Origin: Roseburia faecis
GTDB taxonomy: Bacteria > Bacillota > Clostridia > Lachnospirales > Lachnospiraceae
NCBI RefSeq assembly: GCF_001406815.1
Contig: NZ_CVRR01000011.1
Location: forward strand, 1 to 64,000
Direction: 5' to 3'
DNA: 64,000 bases
The notes under the pieces were generated by a model. The model ran no database searches, had not been told where the DNA came from, and saw only the letters and a program-made list of their open reading frames with translations. A program made the position numbers and the translations under genes. Positions 7,191 through 63,813 of this stretch are shown in pieces. Position 1 is the stretch's first letter, and the number at the start of each line of letters is the position of its first letter.

Positions 7191-8126
7191 ATGGAGAGAA
7201 TCAATGCAGTCACCTTTGCACCATTTTGCGCAAGAGGTACATTTGAAAAAGAAGAAACCAGACAGAGCTTAAAGCTCATGAAAGAAAAGACGGGGGCAAA
7301 TTATGTCATTTTTGCGCCGAACGGTATGCAAAAGACCGCATTTTCCGAGGAGATTGATTATCGGACAGACCGGAATGTGACCGATGAAGAACTGATCGCC
7401 ATGATCGGCTATGCCAAAGAACTGGGGCTTAACGTTGCCTTGAAACCGACCGCAAACTGCGCGGATGGAACCTGGCGGGCGCATATCAATTTTTTTGATG
7501 AAGATGTGGTGTGTGAACCGAAGTGGGGCAATTGGTTTGCCTCTTACCGGGCATTTCAGGAACACTATGCCGGACTTGCGCAGCAGTGCGGAGTGGATCT
7601 GTTTATTGCAGGCTGCGAGATGGTGCAGACCGAGCGCCGCGAAGCGGAATGGCGGGAAGTGATTGCGGCAATCCGCCGGAAGTATGACGGACCGGTTTCC
7701 TACAATACCGATAAGTACCAGGAACACAATGTGAAATGGTGGGATGCGGTAGATGTGATTTCGTCCAGCGGGTATTATCCGATCAACGACTGGGACAATC
7801 AGCTGGATCGTATTGAACAGGTGGTAAAGAAGTTTGACAAGCCGTTTTTCTTTGCCGAGGCAGGCTGCATGTCTGTGGAAGGCTCGAATCAGGTGCCAAA
7901 CGACTGGGGCGTGCAGGGCGCGTATGACGAAAAAGGACAGGCAGACTGGTTCCGGACAATGTTTGCCGCCTGCCAAAAGAGAGAATGGGTAGGCGGATTT
8001 GGAATCTGGGAGTGGGCGGCCTGGCATGGAAACGGCACAAAACCAGTCAAAAGAAACGATTATGAAGTGTATGGAAAAGAAGCACTCGAAGTGATTTGTC
8101 GGAAATATTCACAAGTTTTGGAATGA
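7191..8126 (+). CDS. GH113 beta-1,4-mannanase / oligomannosidase, cytoplasmic
   Basis: The protein has 311 residues and no signal peptide. It resembles the Alicyclobacillus GH113 mannanase. The acid/base Glu143 (AGCEMVQTE) and nucleophile Glu223 (FFFAEAGCMS) are 80 residues apart, the same spacing as E151/E231 in that enzyme. In Roseburia intestinalis the homologue is reported to release mannose from the reducing end of oligosaccharides inside the cell. The start at 7191 is preferred to 7179 because GGAGG at 7181-7185 gives the right spacing. It is the first gene of the mannan cluster on this side. Confidence 0.9.
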   Translation: MERINAVTFAPFCARGTFEKEETRQSLKLMKEKTGANYVIFAPNGMQKTAFSEEIDYRTDRNVTDEELIAMIGYAKELGLNVALKPTANCADGTWRAHINFFDEDVVCEPKWGNWFASYRAFQEHYAGLAQQCGVDLFIAGCEMVQTERREAEWREVIAAIRRKYDGPVSYNTDKYQEHNVKWWDAVDVISSSGYYPINDWDNQLDRIEQVVKKFDKPFFFAEAGCMSVEGSNQVPNDWGVQGAYDEKGQADWFRTMFAACQKREWVGGFGIWEWAAWHGNGTKPVKRNDYEVYGKEALEVICRKYSQVLE

Positions 8127-8156
8127 AAATTTAGCTTAATTCCGATTAAAAATATA

Positions 8157-8184
8157 TTTACACAAACTTAAATTATGGTATACT
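8157..8184 (+). promoter_or_regulatory. Promoter with mannan-type operator in the spacer, before the mutase gene
   Basis: TTTACA (8157-8162) is 16 nt from TATACT (8179-8184). The motif AACTTAAATTA (8165-8175) lies in the spacer. Close variants occur at the lacI, importer and GH26 promoters. Confidence 0.6.
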
Positions 8185-8218
8185 AAAATAAAAAAGCCGA
8201 ATAGAAGGGGGACCTGAA

Positions 8219-9946
8219 ATGAGTTATATGGATACATACAAGAAATGGTGCACAGACAATTATTTTGATGAGGATACCAAAAAAGAACTGCTGGCACTAC
8301 AAGGAAATGATGCAGAGATCGAGGATCGTTTTTACCGTCAGCTGGAGTTTGGTACTGGTGGTCTGCGCGGGGTAATCGGCGCAGGAACAAACCGTATGAA
8401 TATTTATACGGTTCGTCAGGCAACCCAGGGACTGGCAAACTATATCATTTCGCAGAACGGACAGGACAAGGGAGTTGCGATTGCTTATGATTCCCGTATC
8501 ATGTCCCCGGAGTTTTCCGATGAGGCAGCGCTCTGCCTGAATGCAAATGGTATCAAAACCTACCGTTTTGAATCCCTGCGTCCGACACCGGAGCTGTCCT
8601 TTTCTGTTCGGGAACTTGGATGTATTGCAGGTATTGTAATTACGGCAAGCCATAATCCACGCGAGTATAACGGATACAAAGTATACTGGGAGGATGGCGC
8701 ACAGATCACACCTCCACACGATAAAAATATTCTTGCAGAAGTGGCAAAAGTCACTGATTTTTCACAGGTAAAGACTATGATGAAATCTGAGGCCGAAGCT
8801 GCAGGACTTTATCATACCATCGGAAAAGAAATGGATGACCGCTATATGGAAGAACTCAAAAAACAGTCGATCCACCCGGAAATCATCAAAGCGATGGCAA
8901 AAGATATCAAGATCGTTTACACTCCGTTACATGGAACAGGAAATCTCCCGGTACGCCGTGTATTAAAAGAACTGGGATTTGAAAATGTCTATGTAGTAAA
9001 AGAGCAGGAACTTCCGGATGGAAATTTCCCGACCGTTTCCTATCCGAATCCAGAGTCGCCAAAGGCATTTGAGCTTGCACTGAAACTGGCAAAAGAAGTA
9101 GATGCGGATATCGTTCTGGCAACCGATCCGGATGCCGATCGTCTGGGTGTTTATGCAAAGGATACCAAGACAGGAGAGTATGTAAGTTTCACTGGAAATA
9201 TGTCCGGTATGCTGATTGCAGAGTACATTCTGCGTGAGAAAAAAGCAAACGGAACACTCCCGGCAAACGGTGCACTGGTTGAGACTATCGTAACCACCGA
9301 CATGGCAAAGGCAATCGCAAAAGCTTACGGAGTAAAACTGATCGAGGTACTGACCGGATTTAAGTATATCGGTGAGCAGATCAAATTTTTTGAGCAGCAG
9401 AACAGTTATGAGTACGTCTTTGGACTGGAAGAAAGCTACGGATGTCTGGCAGGTACTTATGCAAGAGATAAGGATGCCTGTGTGGCAGTCATGATGCTCT
9501 GCGAAGTGGCAGCATGGTGCAAATCCAACGGAATCACCCTCTGGGATGCCATGGTTTCCCTGTATGAGACTTACGGTTATTACAAAGAAGGTCTTGAGAC
9601 TATGACCTTAAAGGGTATGGACGGAGCAGAAAAGATTCAGAGCATGATGAACGAGATGCGCAGCAACCCGCCGAAAAAGATCGGTGCATGGGATGTTTTA
9701 GCACTTCGTGATTACAAGAAAGATACAAGAACAGATATGACAAGCGGAGAAGTTACACCAACCGGACTTCCGGAAAGTAACGTTCTTTACTATGAACTGA
9801 GCAACAATGCATGGTGTTGTGTACGTCCATCCGGAACAGAGCCAAAGATCAAATTCTATTTTGGCGTTGTAGGAACGGACATCAAAGATTCCGAAAAGAA
9901 ACTGGATGAGCTGCGCAACGCAATGCTTACATACGCAGGAGAATAA
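8219..9946 (+). CDS. Phosphohexomutase (phosphomannomutase/phosphoglucomutase)
   Basis: A 575-residue alpha-D-phosphohexomutase. The phosphoserine loop TASHNPREYNG has Ser144, the metal loop is ATDPDADRLG, the sugar-binding loop GLEESYG, and the phosphate-binding loop RPSGTEPKIKF. In this operon its expected role is mannose-1-phosphate to mannose-6-phosphate, joining the two phosphorylases to the isomerase domain at 24215-26527. Activity on glucose-1-phosphate is also likely for this family, since the epimerase/phosphorylase route releases glucose too. A ribosome site (AGGGGG) lies just before the ATG. Confidence 0.9.
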   Translation: MSYMDTYKKWCTDNYFDEDTKKELLALQGNDAEIEDRFYRQLEFGTGGLRGVIGAGTNRMNIYTVRQATQGLANYIISQNGQDKGVAIAYDSRIMSPEFSDEAALCLNANGIKTYRFESLRPTPELSFSVRELGCIAGIVITASHNPREYNGYKVYWEDGAQITPPHDKNILAEVAKVTDFSQVKTMMKSEAEAAGLYHTIGKEMDDRYMEELKKQSIHPEIIKAMAKDIKIVYTPLHGTGNLPVRRVLKELGFENVYVVKEQELPDGNFPTVSYPNPESPKAFELALKLAKEVDADIVLATDPDADRLGVYAKDTKTGEYVSFTGNMSGMLIAEYILREKKANGTLPANGALVETIVTTDMAKAIAKAYGVKLIEVLTGFKYIGEQIKFFEQQNSYEYVFGLEESYGCLAGTYARDKDACVAVMMLCEVAAWCKSNGITLWDAMVSLYETYGYYKEGLETMTLKGMDGAEKIQSMMNEMRSNPPKKIGAWDVLALRDYKKDTRTDMTSGEVTPTGLPESNVLYYELSNNAWCCVRPSGTEPKIKFYFGVVGTDIKDSEKKLDELRNAMLTYAGE

Positions 9947-58266: not shown

Positions 58267-58302
58267 TATAAATAGGATCGTGTTTGAGTAAAATATAGAA
58301 AT

Positions 58303-58339
58303 AAAAATGCAACATTCTTTTATAGAATGTTGCATTTTT
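58303..58339 (+). repeat. Left palindromic end / terminator
   Basis: Perfect arms of 15 bp (AAAAATGCAACATTC and GAATGTTGCATTTTT) around the loop TTTTATA. It also works as a terminator for the DUF4358 gene. The loop gives the element a direction. Confidence 0.9.
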
Positions 58340-58409
58340 ATTTACACATAATATATCGGACGATTGTTATGTTACTTAACCCCTAAATTCAAAAAAATAA
58401 AAATATTAC

Positions 58410-59387
58410 TTAAACCTTTGTGGGCATGGAATATAATGCCTTTTCGTATTCCTCCAAAGAATATTTTTTTAAAATCTGTTCTTTGGTCAGACCAAGATCA
58501 AGCATATTTTGAATCGCTTCGAGTCTCTCTTCACGTTTACCTTCGAGTTTACCTTTTGCTTCTCCCTGTTCCAGCAATTCCTCAGATCGTAATTTCAAAA
58601 TCTTACCACCCATAATCTCACCCAATCCTTTCCTGATAGTGTTGTCCTCCGGAATAATATAATTCGCAATCTCTTTAATTAAGACAATCATATTCATATA
58701 AAGATGTGATTTGCTTTCTTTTTCCGATGCCTTTTCCAAGCAGTGGTTAATTTTCCGGAAATCATCCAGCAGATGCTGCAGTTTCTTCGAATCTGTTCCA
58801 TTGTGTTTTAAAAAATGCTCATACCGCAAGATATGGTACGGAAGTAAAATTAGCAGTCGTTTTTCGAAAATCTGATCCACAGTATATTTTTTCGCCTGCA
58901 AAACAGGAACGCGGTAATGTACTTCCTGACCGTCCGCAAACTTCACAATCGCTCCGTGATATTCTGGAAGCGATCGGTGATTGCGTATATAGAGTACGCA
59001 TGACTGCGGAAATTCAATCTCCCAGATATCGTTTTCTTCAAGAGAAGCATGTTCAATTGCAATCGAAATATCATACTCAAACATCCGGATGACCATCGTC
59101 TCATCTTTTGTTGACTGGCACTCTAGATGATACATGCGGTTGTCGATCCGAATAATTGAGTCCGTGATTATCGTTCCATACTTTTCGTAATGTTCGTTTC
59201 GCAGCTGTTCAAAGTGTTCCGCTTCGCTGTAAGAAGTGTGGAAAACTTCATTGATCAGTGGAATCAAAAGTTGCGGCATTTTTTGCGCGATGGTTCGAAA
59301 TACATCGTCAAAAATCGTGCTGTGTCCTGTAGTGTTTTTTGCGTTGGCATCCGGCAACGAAGTTGCCACAATGTCAGTGTTCCCCAT
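58410..59387 (-). CDS. Rpn-family (PD-(D/E)XK) nuclease/putative transposase
   Basis: A 325-residue protein of the Rpn/transposase_31-like type. The N-terminal nuclease core has IFDDVFRTIAQKMP, Asp76 (IITDSIIRID) and the Glu89-x-Gln91 pair (MYHLECQSTKDE). The Glu/Lys-rich C-terminus (LEQGEAKGKLEGKREER) is typical of the family. Rpn proteins cut DNA and stimulate recombination. The ATG at 59387 is preferred for its AGGTAGG upstream. The 300-nt gap between this start and the recombinase stop (59388-59687) shows no gene or clear structure. Confidence 0.85.
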   Translation of the reverse strand: MGNTDIVATSLPDANAKNTTGHSTIFDDVFRTIAQKMPQLLIPLINEVFHTSYSEAEHFEQLRNEHYEKYGTIITDSIIRIDNRMYHLECQSTKDETMVIRMFEYDISIAIEHASLEENDIWEIEFPQSCVLYIRNHRSLPEYHGAIVKFADGQEVHYRVPVLQAKKYTVDQIFEKRLLILLPYHILRYEHFLKHNGTDSKKLQHLLDDFRKINHCLEKASEKESKSHLYMNMIVLIKEIANYIIPEDNTIRKGLGEIMGGKILKLRSEELLEQGEAKGKLEGKREERLEAIQNMLDLGLTKEQILKKYSLEEYEKALYSMPTKV

Positions 59388-59687
59388 GTAGTATCCTACC
59401 TTTCTTTTAGTATATATCATAAACATCTGTTTTTACAATATGGAAAATATAAGAAACAGTTGTTATGACCGGTTTTATGAAGTTGTGATTCCAATAGTGA
59501 TTTACGAGCGAAATACTCTCCATGATTGCTTTGCACTACTTTTCCGGCAGTGCCTGTCTGGCATCAGATTTGGAATTATATGTGTTTATTGGAAATAGAA
59601 TAACGTATTTACAAATAGAAGTCAAATGTTTTTATTATGAAGAGAACGCTTTGTATTGTGGTGCAGCAACAAAGCATTCCCATATTT

Positions 59688-60266
59688 TTATAAATTGATG
59701 TTCAGATAAACAAGATCTTTTTCATCCTGTTCAATTCCGAGATACCGTTTAGTGATGTGGAAAGAAGAGTGATTAAAGACATTCATTAAGAGAGCCGGCT
59801 GGACTCCTTCCTGCCATGCATAATAGCCAAAGGTTTTCCGGAGAGAATGACAGCTGATCGCCTCTTCACTGGTTGTATGTGAGGCATCTTCTTTAATAAT
59901 GCGGTAAGCCTGTGAACGGCTGAGCGGTTTATAAGGGTTTGTCCGTTTGGAGAAAACATATTCTTCCGGATCAGGATTCTTTTCCATAAAATATAGATAC
60001 AGGGCATTTTTCGCGTTCTGGTTTATCGCAATATAATTTCTTTTTCCTGTTTTATGTTCCCATATCAAAAGGTGATCCCGAAAACAGTTCTTTTTAAAAT
60101 CATAGACACTTCTCCAGCGAAGATTTAATAGATCGCTGATTCTTAGTGCAGTGTTTAATCCCAATACAACTAAAGTATAATTTCGCAGATGCGGTTTTAC
60201 CTGCTTGTAGTATGAACTGAAATTCTGCAGTTCCTGTCGGTTTCGGATCGGTTGTGTTGTTCCCAT
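59688..60266 (-). CDS. Short tyrosine recombinase (FimB/FimE-sized)
   Basis: A 192-residue site-specific recombinase with a full catalytic set: Arg42 (NTALRISD), Lys72 or Lys75 (EHKTGKRNY), His140-x-x-Arg143 (CHSLRKTFGY), His166 (FNHSS) and Tyr175 (TKRYLG). It has almost none of the N-terminal core-binding domain found in 300-400-aa integrases, so it is the size of FimB/FimE-type invertases. The ATG at 60266 has AAAGGAG 8 nt upstream and is preferred to far longer frames. Its promoter region contains the right repeat and several ATAAAATGC motifs. Confidence 0.92.
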   Translation of the reverse strand: MGTTQPIRNRQELQNFSSYYKQVKPHLRNYTLVVLGLNTALRISDLLNLRWRSVYDFKKNCFRDHLLIWEHKTGKRNYIAINQNAKNALYLYFMEKNPDPEEYVFSKRTNPYKPLSRSQAYRIIKEDASHTTSEEAISCHSLRKTFGYYAWQEGVQPALLMNVFNHSSFHITKRYLGIEQDEKDLVYLNINL

Positions 60267-60291
60267 AAAAATTACTCCTTTCAAGTCAAAA

Positions 60292-60382
60292 ATAAAATGC
60301 TTTTGTGACATAAAATGCAACATTCTATAAAACATTGTCGCATTTTTGAAATAAAAAGAAAAGAAGCATTTTATAAAAATGC
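60292..60382. repeat. Cluster of ATAAAATGC sites upstream of the recombinase gene
   Basis: ATAAAATGC occurs at 60292-60300 and 60310-60318 (18-nt period) and inverted at 60366-60374. The last is part of a second palindrome, GCATTTTATAAAAATGC (60366-60382). Confidence 0.7.
60312..60347 (-). repeat. Right end repeat, inverted copy of 58303-58339
   Basis: Matches the reverse complement of the left element at 33 of 36 aligned positions, including the first 21 nt with the directional loop TATAAAA. The right arm has three changes, so this copy is an imperfect palindrome. Confidence 0.85.
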
Positions 60383-60453: not shown

Positions 60454-60750
60454 ATGCTGAAACTTTCATTGAAACAGGGGCAATATGTAAACATTGGTGA
60501 TAACATCCGTGTGGTCTATGTAGGTGGTTCGGGAAATCACGCAAGGCTGCTCATTGATGCCCCACGGGAACTCAACATTGCCAGAAGTACCACGGAAGAA
60601 AATCCGGCACGAAAGAGAGAAACCTATTATGCAGAGCCGGGTATTTCCAGGGAGGCACAGCAGGAGATTAAACGAATTCTGTGGAATGAGCGGATGAAAG
60701 CAGAAGCAAAAAAAGATGCAGAGAGTTTAAAAGATAAATTTAACGCTTAG
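60454..60750 (+). CDS. csrA: CsrA-type RNA-binding translational regulator, long form
   Basis: A 98-residue protein whose first 48 residues are a CsrA domain (MLKLSLKQGQYVNIGDNIRV, LLIDAPRELNIARS) with Leu4 and the RNA-contacting Arg44 conserved. The remaining 50 residues form a charged helical tail, longer than the usual 61-75-aa CsrA. The start has GGAGGT at 60442-60447. It precedes the flagellin gene, and in Bacillus CsrA represses flagellin translation. The flagellin leader here has suitable GGA sites. Confidence 0.88.
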   Translation: MLKLSLKQGQYVNIGDNIRVVYVGGSGNHARLLIDAPRELNIARSTTEENPARKRETYYAEPGISREAQQEIKRILWNERMKAEAKKDAESLKDKFNA

Positions 60751-60969: not shown

Positions 60970-62388
60970 ATGAGTATGGTAGTACAACACAACATGCAGG
61001 CAGCAAACGCAAACAGAATGCTTGGTATCACATCCGGAGCACAGGCTAAGTCAACCGAGAAGTTATCTTCCGGTTACAAGATCAACCGTGCAGCAGATGA
61101 TGCAGCAGGACTTACCATTTCCGAGAAGATGAGAAAGCAGATCCGTGGACTGGACAAGGCTTCTTCCAATGCACAGGACGGTGTATCTTCTGTACAGACC
61201 GCTGAAGGTGCTTTAACAGAAGTTCACAGCATGTTACAGCGTATGAATGAGCTTGCAGTTCAGGCTTCTAACGGTACAAACTCCAAGGATACAGACCGTA
61301 AGGCTATTCAGGATGAGATCGACCAGTTAAATACAGAGATCGACCGTGTTGCTGAGACAACCAAATTCAATGAGATTTACCTGTTAAAGGGTGATGACGG
61401 TGAGAAGACCGTTAATATGAATGCACATGATGCCGGATTAAAGGGAACATTAGTTGATAATGGTTCTGGAAAAGCAACATTTACCATGAAAGCACTTTCC
61501 GCAGGAGACAGTGTAAGCATCGGAGGAAAGAACTATACAATTGGAAGTACAGCAGCAGATGCACAGAAAATTGTAGATGCACAGAAAAAGGTTGGCGGAA
61601 AAGTTACCGTTAATGGTGTAGAGTACACTTATGATAATGCAGATACAAAATGGAAAGATGCAGATGGTAATGATGTAAAGATTGGAACTGGTGCAAATGC
61701 AGGTGAAATTAAAATTGGTGCTGGTGACAAAGTATCCGATGGAACAACCACTTTAACAGCTATGACTGATGAAAAAAATGCAGCAGGTGCAGCTACAGCA
61801 GATGGTGTTGATGATAATGATAATAGCGTTATCACCGCAGAAAAAGCTTATTCATTAGCAAAAGATGAACTTGTTGCTGCAAATCATATTGGTGATACAG
61901 AAAATACGGCAGCAGTAGCTCAGGATACTACGAACAAGAATATATTTAAAATTACAACAGGTTCTGCAAAAGTTGCCAACACATTAAGCTTCAGCCTTCA
62001 TGTAGGTGCAGATGCTGACATGACCAACAAGATCACAGTCGACATCGACACTATGAATTCTGCAAACCTTGGAATCAAGGGCTTAAACGTAACTGACAAG
62101 AACGGTACAGCAGCAACCTACGCAATCGATGCTATTTCCGATGCAATCTCTAAGGTTTCTTCCCAGAGATCCGCACTCGGTGCTGTACAGAACAGATTAG
62201 AGCACACCATCGACAACCTGGATAACATTTCCGAGAATACATCTTCTGCTGAGTCTCGTATCCGTGATACAGATATGGCAAAAGAGATGGTAAACTACAG
62301 CAAGAACAACATTCTTGCACAGGCTGGACAGTCTATGCTTGCACAGGCTAATCAGTCTAATCAGGGTGTACTTTCTCTGTTACAGTAA
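60970..62388 (+). CDS. fliC: Flagellin
   Basis: The protein has 472 residues. The conserved N-terminal D0/D1 region (1 to about 140) reads MSMVVQHNMQAANANRMLGI with LQRMNELAVQASNGTN, the TLR5-contact region. The conserved C-terminal D1/D0 region (about 375-472) reads ISKVSSQRSALGAVQNRLEH and ends QGVLSLLQ. The middle, about 230 residues, is a Lys/Asp/Ala-rich variable domain with lower GC DNA. No signal peptide is present, as expected for type III export. A strong AAGGAGG site precedes it. Confidence 0.97.
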   Translation: MSMVVQHNMQAANANRMLGITSGAQAKSTEKLSSGYKINRAADDAAGLTISEKMRKQIRGLDKASSNAQDGVSSVQTAEGALTEVHSMLQRMNELAVQASNGTNSKDTDRKAIQDEIDQLNTEIDRVAETTKFNEIYLLKGDDGEKTVNMNAHDAGLKGTLVDNGSGKATFTMKALSAGDSVSIGGKNYTIGSTAADAQKIVDAQKKVGGKVTVNGVEYTYDNADTKWKDADGNDVKIGTGANAGEIKIGAGDKVSDGTTTLTAMTDEKNAAGAATADGVDDNDNSVITAEKAYSLAKDELVAANHIGDTENTAAVAQDTTNKNIFKITTGSAKVANTLSFSLHVGADADMTNKITVDIDTMNSANLGIKGLNVTDKNGTAATYAIDAISDAISKVSSQRSALGAVQNRLEHTIDNLDNISENTSSAESRIRDTDMAKEMVNYSKNNILAQAGQSMLAQANQSNQGVLSLLQ

Positions 62389-62411: not shown

Positions 62412-62439
62412 CAAAAGGGATTCTTCGGAGTCCCTTTTG
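62412..62439 (+). terminator. Flagellin terminator with UUCG tetraloop
   Basis: Stem CAAAAGGGATTC (62412-62423) with GAGTCCCTTTTG (62428-62439), one G-U pair, loop TTCG. Confidence 0.85.
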
Positions 62440-62469
62440 GTGTATTCAGATAAAGAAATGGAAGATAAT

Positions 62470-63813
62470 ATGGCAGAAATTTCAGAAGATAAAATTAAAT
62501 CAATAGACTATTTATTTAACCGAATTATATCAGAACGTGTCAGGGATTCCATGGAACCGAAGTATAGTCTTTTAATGGGAGCGGGATGTTCCGTTAGTTC
62601 ACAAATTGTTTCTGCAAAAGATATTATTAATATGCTTAAAACGATAGTATATTTAAGGGAACTTCCGACAGAAGATACACAAACACCATTTTTGGATTTA
62701 GAGTATGGAAAATTAGTTCCGTTTCTCAAAAGATGGTATGAAAAAAATCAGGATAATGAGAAGTTTACAGAATTTGTGGAACAAAAGGAACAGCAAATAC
62801 GAGATGATATTTATAAAAAAATAGATACCATGCCAAATTACTATGAAGAAGTTTTTTATAATATAATACACAAAAGATATCAAGGATATGAGGATCTGCC
62901 GAAAAACGAAAAAACAATTATTTTGAAACAATTATTAGAAGAATATGAAGATAAAATACAATCGGATATGGAATATAGTTTCTGGTTTACAAATTATTCT
63001 ACAGCATCGGAGGATATTCATGGATTTTTGTCAGAATTAATGCATAATAAGCAACCATCCGAAGCATATATTTTATTGGCAGATTTATATATAAACAAAC
63101 TATTTTCCATTGCATTTACTACTAATTTTGATAATCTTCTGGCAGAAGCATTAAGCTTACTGGGAGTGCGAAGTAAGGAACTTTGGTTTGATTCCAATGA
63201 AGTGGATAATACATTAAGTAAAACATCTCCCAATATTGTAAAATTGCATGGCGATTATATGTATCATAACACAAAGAATCTTTCGCGGGAAACTCGTAAA
63301 CTGGCATCACCTCTGCAAAAACATTTACAGAATGTTTTAAGTAAAGGCGGATTAATTGTAATAGGTTATTCAGGAGCGGATAATTCTATTATGTATACTT
63401 TAGAGAAACTTTCAGAAAAGTATTCATTTCCGCTGTTTTGGTGTGAAATGGAAGAGAAAATTATACAGGCTAATGTACATTGGAGAGTTAGATCGTTAGT
63501 TGAAAATTCTGAAAATGCATATTTCATCAAAATAAAGAATTTCGATGAATTTGTTAAAAAATTGAGAGAAAATTATATGATTTATTCGAAACTACGAAGA
63601 GATAAAAATGGTAATTTAAAAAAAAGTAAAATGGAAGATTCTGAAAGAGATAAAAATGATGTTCTATATGATGATAAATATTTATCTGAAGCGCTAGAAA
63701 AAGTTCGTAACATTATTAATGAAGTATTGGATGAAAATGAAAAATTGAGAAATCGAGTGACTGTCGTACCACCACCAAGTCAAAACTTATTCAAATTAGA
63801 AGAGGAATTGTAA
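62470..63813 (+). CDS. SIR2-domain protein, probable anti-phage NADase
   Basis: A 447-residue protein with a SIR2-like Rossmann fold: GAGCSVSS (37-44), SIAFTTNFDNLLAEAL (Asn219, Asp221), the catalytic His260 in VKLHGDYMYH, and GLIVIGYSGADNSIMYTLEKL (294-314). A charged coiled-coil-like tail (about 370-447) follows. Stand-alone SIR2 proteins of this kind in AT-rich islands are often effectors that deplete NAD+ on phage infection. The ATG at 62470 (GGAAG upstream) is preferred to 62458 or a GTG at 62437. Its AT-rich codon use differs strongly from the flagellin next to it. It is followed one base later by a partial gene. Confidence 0.85.
   Translation: MAEISEDKIKSIDYLFNRIISERVRDSMEPKYSLLMGAGCSVSSQIVSAKDIINMLKTIVYLRELPTEDTQTPFLDLEYGKLVPFLKRWYEKNQDNEKFTEFVEQKEQQIRDDIYKKIDTMPNYYEEVFYNIIHKRYQGYEDLPKNEKTIILKQLLEEYEDKIQSDMEYSFWFTNYSTASEDIHGFLSELMHNKQPSEAYILLADLYINKLFSIAFTTNFDNLLAEALSLLGVRSKELWFDSNEVDNTLSKTSPNIVKLHGDYMYHNTKNLSRETRKLASPLQKHLQNVLSKGGLIVIGYSGADNSIMYTLEKLSEKYSFPLFWCEMEEKIIQANVHWRVRSLVENSENAYFIKIKNFDEFVKKLRENYMIYSKLRRDKNGNLKKSKMEDSERDKNDVLYDDKYLSEALEKVRNIINEVLDENEKLRNRVTVVPPPSQNLFKLEEEL

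Follow-up and report, generated by a model that had tools for sequence, protein, structure and literature searches.

A segment of about 2.0 kb upstream of csrA and a flagellin gene of Roseburia faecis is, with a probability that we put at about 0.88, a DNA-inversion switch for these two genes. It lies in the window, i.e. the whole 64,000-nucleotide stretch analysed here. In the mechanism that we propose, a 192-aa tyrosine recombinase would bind two inverted sites, each made of two 11-bp arms around a 7-bp spacer, and flip the intervening DNA, its own gene included. One end of this segment would bear a sigma-28 promoter. In the ON state, this promoter would read across a weak site next to csrA and into csrA and flagellin. 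In the OFF state, which is that of this assembly, it would leave the segment at the far end, where a strong hairpin and a T-run probably stop the transcript. The preliminary description of this DNA had already suggested that a FimB-sized recombinase inverts the segment and alters the transcription of csrA and flagellin. Comparison across species strongly supports this suggestion, by the pairs of sites, by the promoter and by a segment inverted between two loci (L072 and L095).

Common gut bacteria would thus probably use DNA inversion to turn a flagellin on and off. Roseburia and other Lachnospiraceae produce flagellins that are abundant antigens in the gut and that act as TLR5 ligands. Induction of IL-8 by some of them is described in PMC3720852. 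If an inversion switch is widespread, it would help to account for uneven flagellin expression, and the presence of a flagellin gene would then not predict the antigen. Counts of both junctions in existing metagenomes could reveal the state of the switch.

The recombinase family and its sites

The two palindromes that bound the unit are at 58303-58339 and 60312-60347, where the preliminary description had placed them. When one is inverted, they agree at 33 of 36 positions, vs 30 of 36 in direct orientation. Their orientation is indeed fixed by the asymmetric 7-bp spacer, since TTTTATA and TATAAAA are exact reverse complements. When up to three mismatches were allowed, the 37-nt full pattern matched only the 58303 element in the 64-kb window (0 matches in 100 shuffles), and the 29-nt core matched just the two window elements in the 3.33-Mb genome (100 contigs). 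The putative csrA-distal recombination site (58307..58335, no strand) has arms ATGCAACATTC and GAATGTTGCAT around the spacer TTTTATA at 58318-58324. The putative csrA-proximal site (60315..60343) consists of the inner arm ATGCAACATTC, the spacer TATAAAA at 60326-60332 and a degenerate outer arm, CATTGTCGCAT, which matches the family consensus at 8 of 11 positions. The inverted site pair and the equivalent segment of L072 and L095 suggest that the DNA between both spacers, 58325..60325, is invertible.

Between the palindromes, the preliminary description had seen a complete recombinase and an Rpn-type nuclease, and only the first assignment is firm. The recombinase gene (59688..60266, minus strand) encodes a complete protein of 192 aa that comprises only the catalytic domain and scores 77 bits against PF00589 (cut-off 27.1), which makes it a member of the tyrosine recombinase superfamily. 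The second gene (58410..59426, minus strand), a 338-aa ORF resembling the Rpn PD-(D/E)XK proteins, reaches 33.2 bits against TIGR01784, below the cut-off of 52.1, and has no match in Pfam. The unit lies, as described before, upstream of csrA (60454..60750, plus strand; PF02599, 58.6 bits when scanned from an upstream in-frame start), which would be the first gene of the switched pair. Next comes a flagellin of 472 aa (60970..62388, plus strand), which would be switched with csrA; homologous flagellins adjoin csrA in relatives. Immediately after flagellin, at 62437-63813, the window encodes a protein with a SIR2-like domain (PF13289, 58 bits), and the next ORF leaves the window. These two genes are a possible candidate defence pair.

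Residues R42, K75, H140, R143, H166 and Y175 are invariant in 40 of 40 aligned recombinases, the one of the window included, and we take them to be the catalytic R-K-H-R-H/W-Y set. The predicted structure (pLDDT 91.2) is that of a tyrosine recombinase catalytic domain. Both by sequence and by fold (Foldseek), its best match is XerA (5hxy), and the Foldseek matches of the model also include Tn1549 Int and Cre. The protein remains far below the two models named tyrosine-type DNA invertase, NF007371 (37.1 bits vs a cut-off of 222) and NF007370 (34.6 vs 221), which are presumably the FimB/FimE models. It does not reach the Xer equivalog cut-offs either (XerA 65.8 vs 220, XerD 45.8 vs 329.6, XerC 38.1 vs 335.15). 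Relatives within the genus are 51-66% identical, and a relative at E ≤ 1e-30 is present in 40 of the 397 genomes sampled from the family, counting the genome of the window itself. A scan of named genomes provided the best 80 of 491 loci, mostly from Lachnospiraceae. Together with 42 further loci, and after removal of 9 duplicates, this resulted in 113 non-redundant loci. One duplicate, L088 from genome G020 of the same genus, is identical in its recombinase DNA to L044 (Roseburia hominis isolate S12_Bin1), which very likely places the window in Roseburia as defined by GTDB.

The preliminary description had proposed a search for the palindrome next to homologous recombinases, and it does recur beside the recombinase across species. 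The site consists of two 11-bp arms (consensus ATGCAACATTT) and a 7-bp spacer. This 11-7-11 geometry is that of a tyrosine-recombinase core site. We detected sites by their arms only, ignoring spacers, with one fixed rule for all 113 loci, which gave two sites in 61 loci, one in 12 and none in 40. Some of the one-site and no-site loci have divergent site sequences; in others, no site was recognised. In 60 of the 61 two-site loci, one spacer is the exact reverse complement of the other; in the last one, 6 of 7 positions match, and no locus has its spacers in direct orientation. There are 43 different spacers, and the rate of spacer matches across loci is 61/3660. This is as expected of sites that need a common spacer to recombine and that are laid out for inversion. 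Away from the recombinase, only 3 such sites were found in 626,638 bases of fetched loci. On this comparative evidence, the two palindromes are recombination sites of the tyrosine recombinase family. The spacers tend to be AT-rich, often with TATAA or TATTA, and might serve as the -10 box of the recombinase's own promoter.

We considered whether these palindromes could be ordinary terminators whose similarity and orientation are coincidental. The 58303 element does have a 20-bp stem and a T-run. However, coincidence accounts poorly for spacers that are reverse-complementary within loci while differing among them, for sites that occur near the recombinase and almost nowhere else in the fetched loci, and for a segment that is inverted between L072 and L095. 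We give this explanation practically no credit.

The sites are also linked to specific genes. In 85 of the 113 loci, csrA is no more than 3 kb away from the recombinase, and 79 of these 85 have a flagellin match within 4 kb. Among the 28 loci without csrA at this distance, 20 have less than 3 kb of sequence on at least one side and 8 do not. Since loci were picked by the recombinase alone, the linkage to csrA was not selected for. The analyses of promoters, hairpins, far-side genes and segment lengths used the site pairs that match at 24 or more of 29 positions when inverted, plus pairs added by reading (57 loci, 55 with csrA; L047 and L109 were left out of the 55-locus set because they lack csrA). 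The leader between the proximal site and csrA is 18-132 nt long, counting the start codon.

Some relatives of the recombinase are beside polysaccharide genes, so that this family may act on further surface structures. In L047 and L161, the recombinase adjoins glycosyltransferase or sugar-nucleotide genes and is flanked by site-like pairs; such loci are possible polysaccharide switches. By reading, L149, L164 and L167 also have relatives of the recombinase near glycosyltransferase or sugar-nucleotide genes. L109 (8001-10489) combines the recombinase with a pair of sites and a complete sigma-28 motif aimed at a polysaccharide deacetylase with choline-binding repeats, with no csrA within 3 kb.

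Promoter, probable terminator and the target of the proposed switch

Just inside the 58303 element, the minus strand at 58379-58353 carries a sigma-28 promoter motif that the preliminary description had overlooked. By consensus it reads TTAA-N16-CCGATAT, with TTAA at -35 in place of the consensus TAAA. It points outward past the csrA-distal site and away from csrA, i.e. the locus is OFF. After inversion, its -10 box would be 156 nt upstream of the start codon of csrA. The motif was first spotted in two loci and then tested on all 55. At a threshold of 9 of 11 positions or more, 52 of 55 segments have an outward motif 18-60 nt inward of the csrA-distal end, vs 4 of 55 at the csrA-proximal end (L072 and L092, both ON, are among these) and 211 of 2750 shuffled ends. 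With at least 10 of 11 positions, the counts become 46 of 55, 2 of 55 and 14 of 2750, respectively. The three loci lacking the distal motif are L072, L092 and L041. The first two have it at the csrA-proximal end, with 11 of 11 positions and aimed at csrA, and L041 has a long segment into which a group II intron maturase is inserted (7614-9008; TIGR04416, 406 bits). The position of the promoter is thus a regular feature of these segments, and we infer that the promoter works. Another locus of the window genome, L033, has copies 51 bp apart that hold CAAA-N15-CCGATAA (minus strand), about 600-700 bp upstream of the recombinase (G000:C9) and beside the csrA of contig C9.

The two sites differ in their terminator-like features. 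In the 8 nt after the site, T's average 5.75 at the far end vs 1.91 at the proximal end of the 55 loci; the far site has more of them in 54 loci and as many in one. Mean hairpin energies are -11.4 and -7.2 kcal/mol, respectively. In the window, the csrA-distal hairpin (-14.7 kcal/mol, 7 of 8 T downstream) has an extended stem at 58299-58343 followed by the T-run, and it probably also ends transcripts leaving the segment; the proximal one is weak (-3.6 kcal/mol, 4 of 8 T). Outer arms are somewhat weaker at proximal sites (mean 9.4 of 11 positions vs 10.1 at far sites), which selection for read-through could explain. These asymmetries suggest that the far site would terminate sigma-28 transcripts in the OFF state and that the proximal site would let them pass in the ON state. 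The preliminary description had considered a terminator palindrome serving as the target of a mobile element. The csrA-distal element does look like an intrinsic terminator, in addition to being a recombination site.

A genuine inversion switch could have a main target other than flagellin, e.g. the recombinase itself or a gene on the far side. The recombinase is the first gene facing the OFF promoter in L040, L059, L063 and L093 (not in L098), i.e. in 4 of the 5 loci that have the recombinase outside the site pair and a promoter at the far end. Yet the far-side genes are otherwise diverse, occur in either orientation and are shielded by a terminator-like site, whereas csrA follows a weak site after a short leader. 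We regard a different main target as very unlikely. The more specific idea that the OFF promoter serves a conserved far-side gene was rejected: there is none apart from the recombinase in the loci where it is outside the pair.

The preliminary description had also raised the idea of a new small mobile element. Such an element would consist of the recombinase and its cargo, with the palindromes as its ends and their inverted orientation incidental. Some observations are in line with it. The genes past the far site vary (29 on the plus and 25 on the minus strand among the 57 pairs, with too little sequence in 3; 5 of the 29 are the recombinase itself). The genome of the window has two copies of the recombinase, on contig C11, which holds the window, and on C9. 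The distant homologues are phage integrases, 37-40% identical among the matches listed. However, variable far flanks fit equally well the relocation of a whole cassette of csrA, flagellin and switch. A mobile element does not account for a recombinase that is mostly near csrA or for the conserved position of the sigma-28 promoter. Nor does it fit the six loci in which the recombinase is outside the site pair, which occupy three places of the tree and need at least two changes. In the loci compared here the idea gained no support, as the sites are tied to the recombinase and mostly to csrA and flagellin, and we find it very unlikely.

Orientation, decay and passengers

An automatic rule scored the orientation of 62 of the 113 loci: 60 were OFF and 2 were ON. 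The remaining 51 were without csrA, a site pair or a promoter under this strict rule. A strong OFF bias is a genuine feature of these assemblies, and the near absence of ON assemblies may result from selection in the gut or from a directional recombinase. A second clade has a mirror layout, in which the promoter is at the 5' side of the recombinase, inside the segment, and aimed away from csrA. The eight loci with this layout form one clade (98/90); L046, L099, L102, L106, L127 and L133, with other site sequences, were not scored in the census.

The two orientations can be compared in L072 (Roseburia sp. SUG84, ON) and L095 (Roseburia sp. RGIG9039, OFF). They are collinear on the csrA side through the site, and then the recombinase gene and the promoter-site end align on the opposite strand. 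Collinearity returns on the far side, with 51 nt at the site edge, then 2.0-2.5 kb that do not align and then 3 kb that are 79% identical. The recombinase tree has L072 as the sister of L095 plus L044 (99/58, a grouping that is not firm). Inversion at the sites, between species, is the simplest reading of this difference, and we infer that the recombinase does the flipping.

Single strains would switch reversibly under the model proposed here. No strain was found in both orientations, and two contigs from the same species as sampled loci are OFF like their relatives: L172 (MT837633.1), 97-98% identical to the C9 locus of the window genome, and L173 (MT837916.1), about 98% identical to the locus of genome G033. 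These two are faecal contigs retrieved by tblastn in phage records and deposited as 'Bacteriophage sp.', and they are actually bacterial chromosome. The two exact junction patterns had no match in viral_contigs, and among the best 80 of 393 viral relatives of the recombinase the identity goes up to 47%.

Such uniformity could also mean that the switch has decayed. The family would then invert DNA elsewhere, while the locus of the window would be fixed OFF by its degenerate proximal arm or by the insertion of the Rpn gene. The scarcity of ON loci and the OFF state of both same-species contigs are in agreement with this, and decay does happen, as the recombinase of genome G010 is split by a stop. 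But the recombinase ORF of the window is intact, with all catalytic residues, and the spacers match exactly. Similarly degenerate proximal arms are found beside intact recombinase frames in relatives such as L085, L108 and L126. We judge it unlikely that the window locus is locked OFF.

The segments between the paired sites are mostly short: among the 57, 47 measure 0.68-0.96 kb, 5 exceed 1.2 kb and 5 are below 0.45 kb. We considered the Rpn gene as a required partner and rejected this, because the 47 have room for the recombinase only. An Rpn-type nuclease gene is inside the segment in the window (with its weak score) and in L076, and it follows the recombinase in L130; by reading, L160 also has an Rpn-like ORF. 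We treat these genes as insertions tolerated by the switch, i.e. as occasional passengers. Contig C11 has, beyond the window (L056, 13680-15954), two tandem Rpn paralogues 78-79% identical to the one of the segment.

The genome of the window has three csrA matches, on C11 (the window), C3 (98% identical) and C9 (48%). The csrA of C9 adjoins the sister recombinase, with no flagellin match beside it. On C3, the pair at L137 (G000:C3:89044-91020) consists of a csrA 98% and a flagellin 80% identical to those of the window. This uneven divergence suggests a recent duplication or gene conversion. A sigma-28-like sequence, read by eye, is upstream of the C3 csrA and faces it, and no recombinase of this family was found at C3. 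Hence, the strain may have one fixed and one switchable flagellin, on C3 and C11 respectively, and by analogy it may resemble diphasic Salmonella.

Comparison with known systems

Inverted repeats flanking an outward promoter are a feature of invertons, i.e. invertible promoters, and the unit has both, its promoter being recognised by consensus. PhaseFinder and PhaVa, named in PMC11868660, are surveys of invertons, and some of these loci may be listed there. No report of the switch was found among the open-access PMC papers listed by our searches. The survey of flagellin promoters in Roseburia and Eubacterium by Neville (2013; PMC3720852) gives the sigma-28 consensus as TAAA-N-CCGATAT and notes csrA at a motility locus; in its main text, 'recombinase', 'integrase' and 'phase variation' occur 0 times. 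It reports no promoter for EUBELI_00422, ROSINTL182_09568 and ROSINTL182_08635. Conjecturally, a promoter in OFF orientation might be the reason.

Tyrosine recombinases are known to act on comparable elements. As described in PMC6083910, the E. coli promoter elements fimS (FimB/FimE) and ipuS (IpuA/IpuB and others) are next to recombinase genes and are inverted by tyrosine recombinases. Those genes adjoin the element or, for ipuA, overlap its edge, whereas here the gene is inside the segment. The targets also differ, and the recombinase of the window is far below the NCBIfam cut-offs for invertases. The flagellar switch Cdi4 of Clostridioides difficile, another clostridial gut bacterium, likewise combines a tyrosine recombinase with inverted repeats, for flagellar phase variation (PMC5386303). 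Its element, of 154 bp and with repeats of 21 bp, precedes the early flgB operon, and RecV is active at several loci (PMC5903667). Unlike Cdi4, the switch proposed here has a dedicated recombinase, usually inside the segment, and would target csrA and flagellin instead of the flgB operon.

The closest layout is that of Salmonella Hin. A segment between hixL and hixR, termed 'Hin-composed' and 'Hin-containing' in PMC9368917, carries the fljBA promoter and flips this operon on and off. The unit of the window resembles it in having a promoter-bearing segment between two repeated sites by a flagellin operon, and in its anatomy the recombinase and the promoter of that operon are both inside the segment. 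However, Hin is a serine recombinase (PMC11868660), whereas the enzyme of the window is a tyrosine recombinase (PF00589) with 11-7-11 sites, csrA is the first switched gene and the promoter is of the sigma-28 type. A fuller scenario has in our view about an even chance of being right: a Hin-like switch evolved independently in Lachnospiraceae, its distal site doubles as a terminator and its proximal site is kept weak, the default is OFF with a minority of cells releasing flagellin, and the genome of the window is diphasic. Such a switch would be a second, unrelated enzymatic solution to the layout of Hin.
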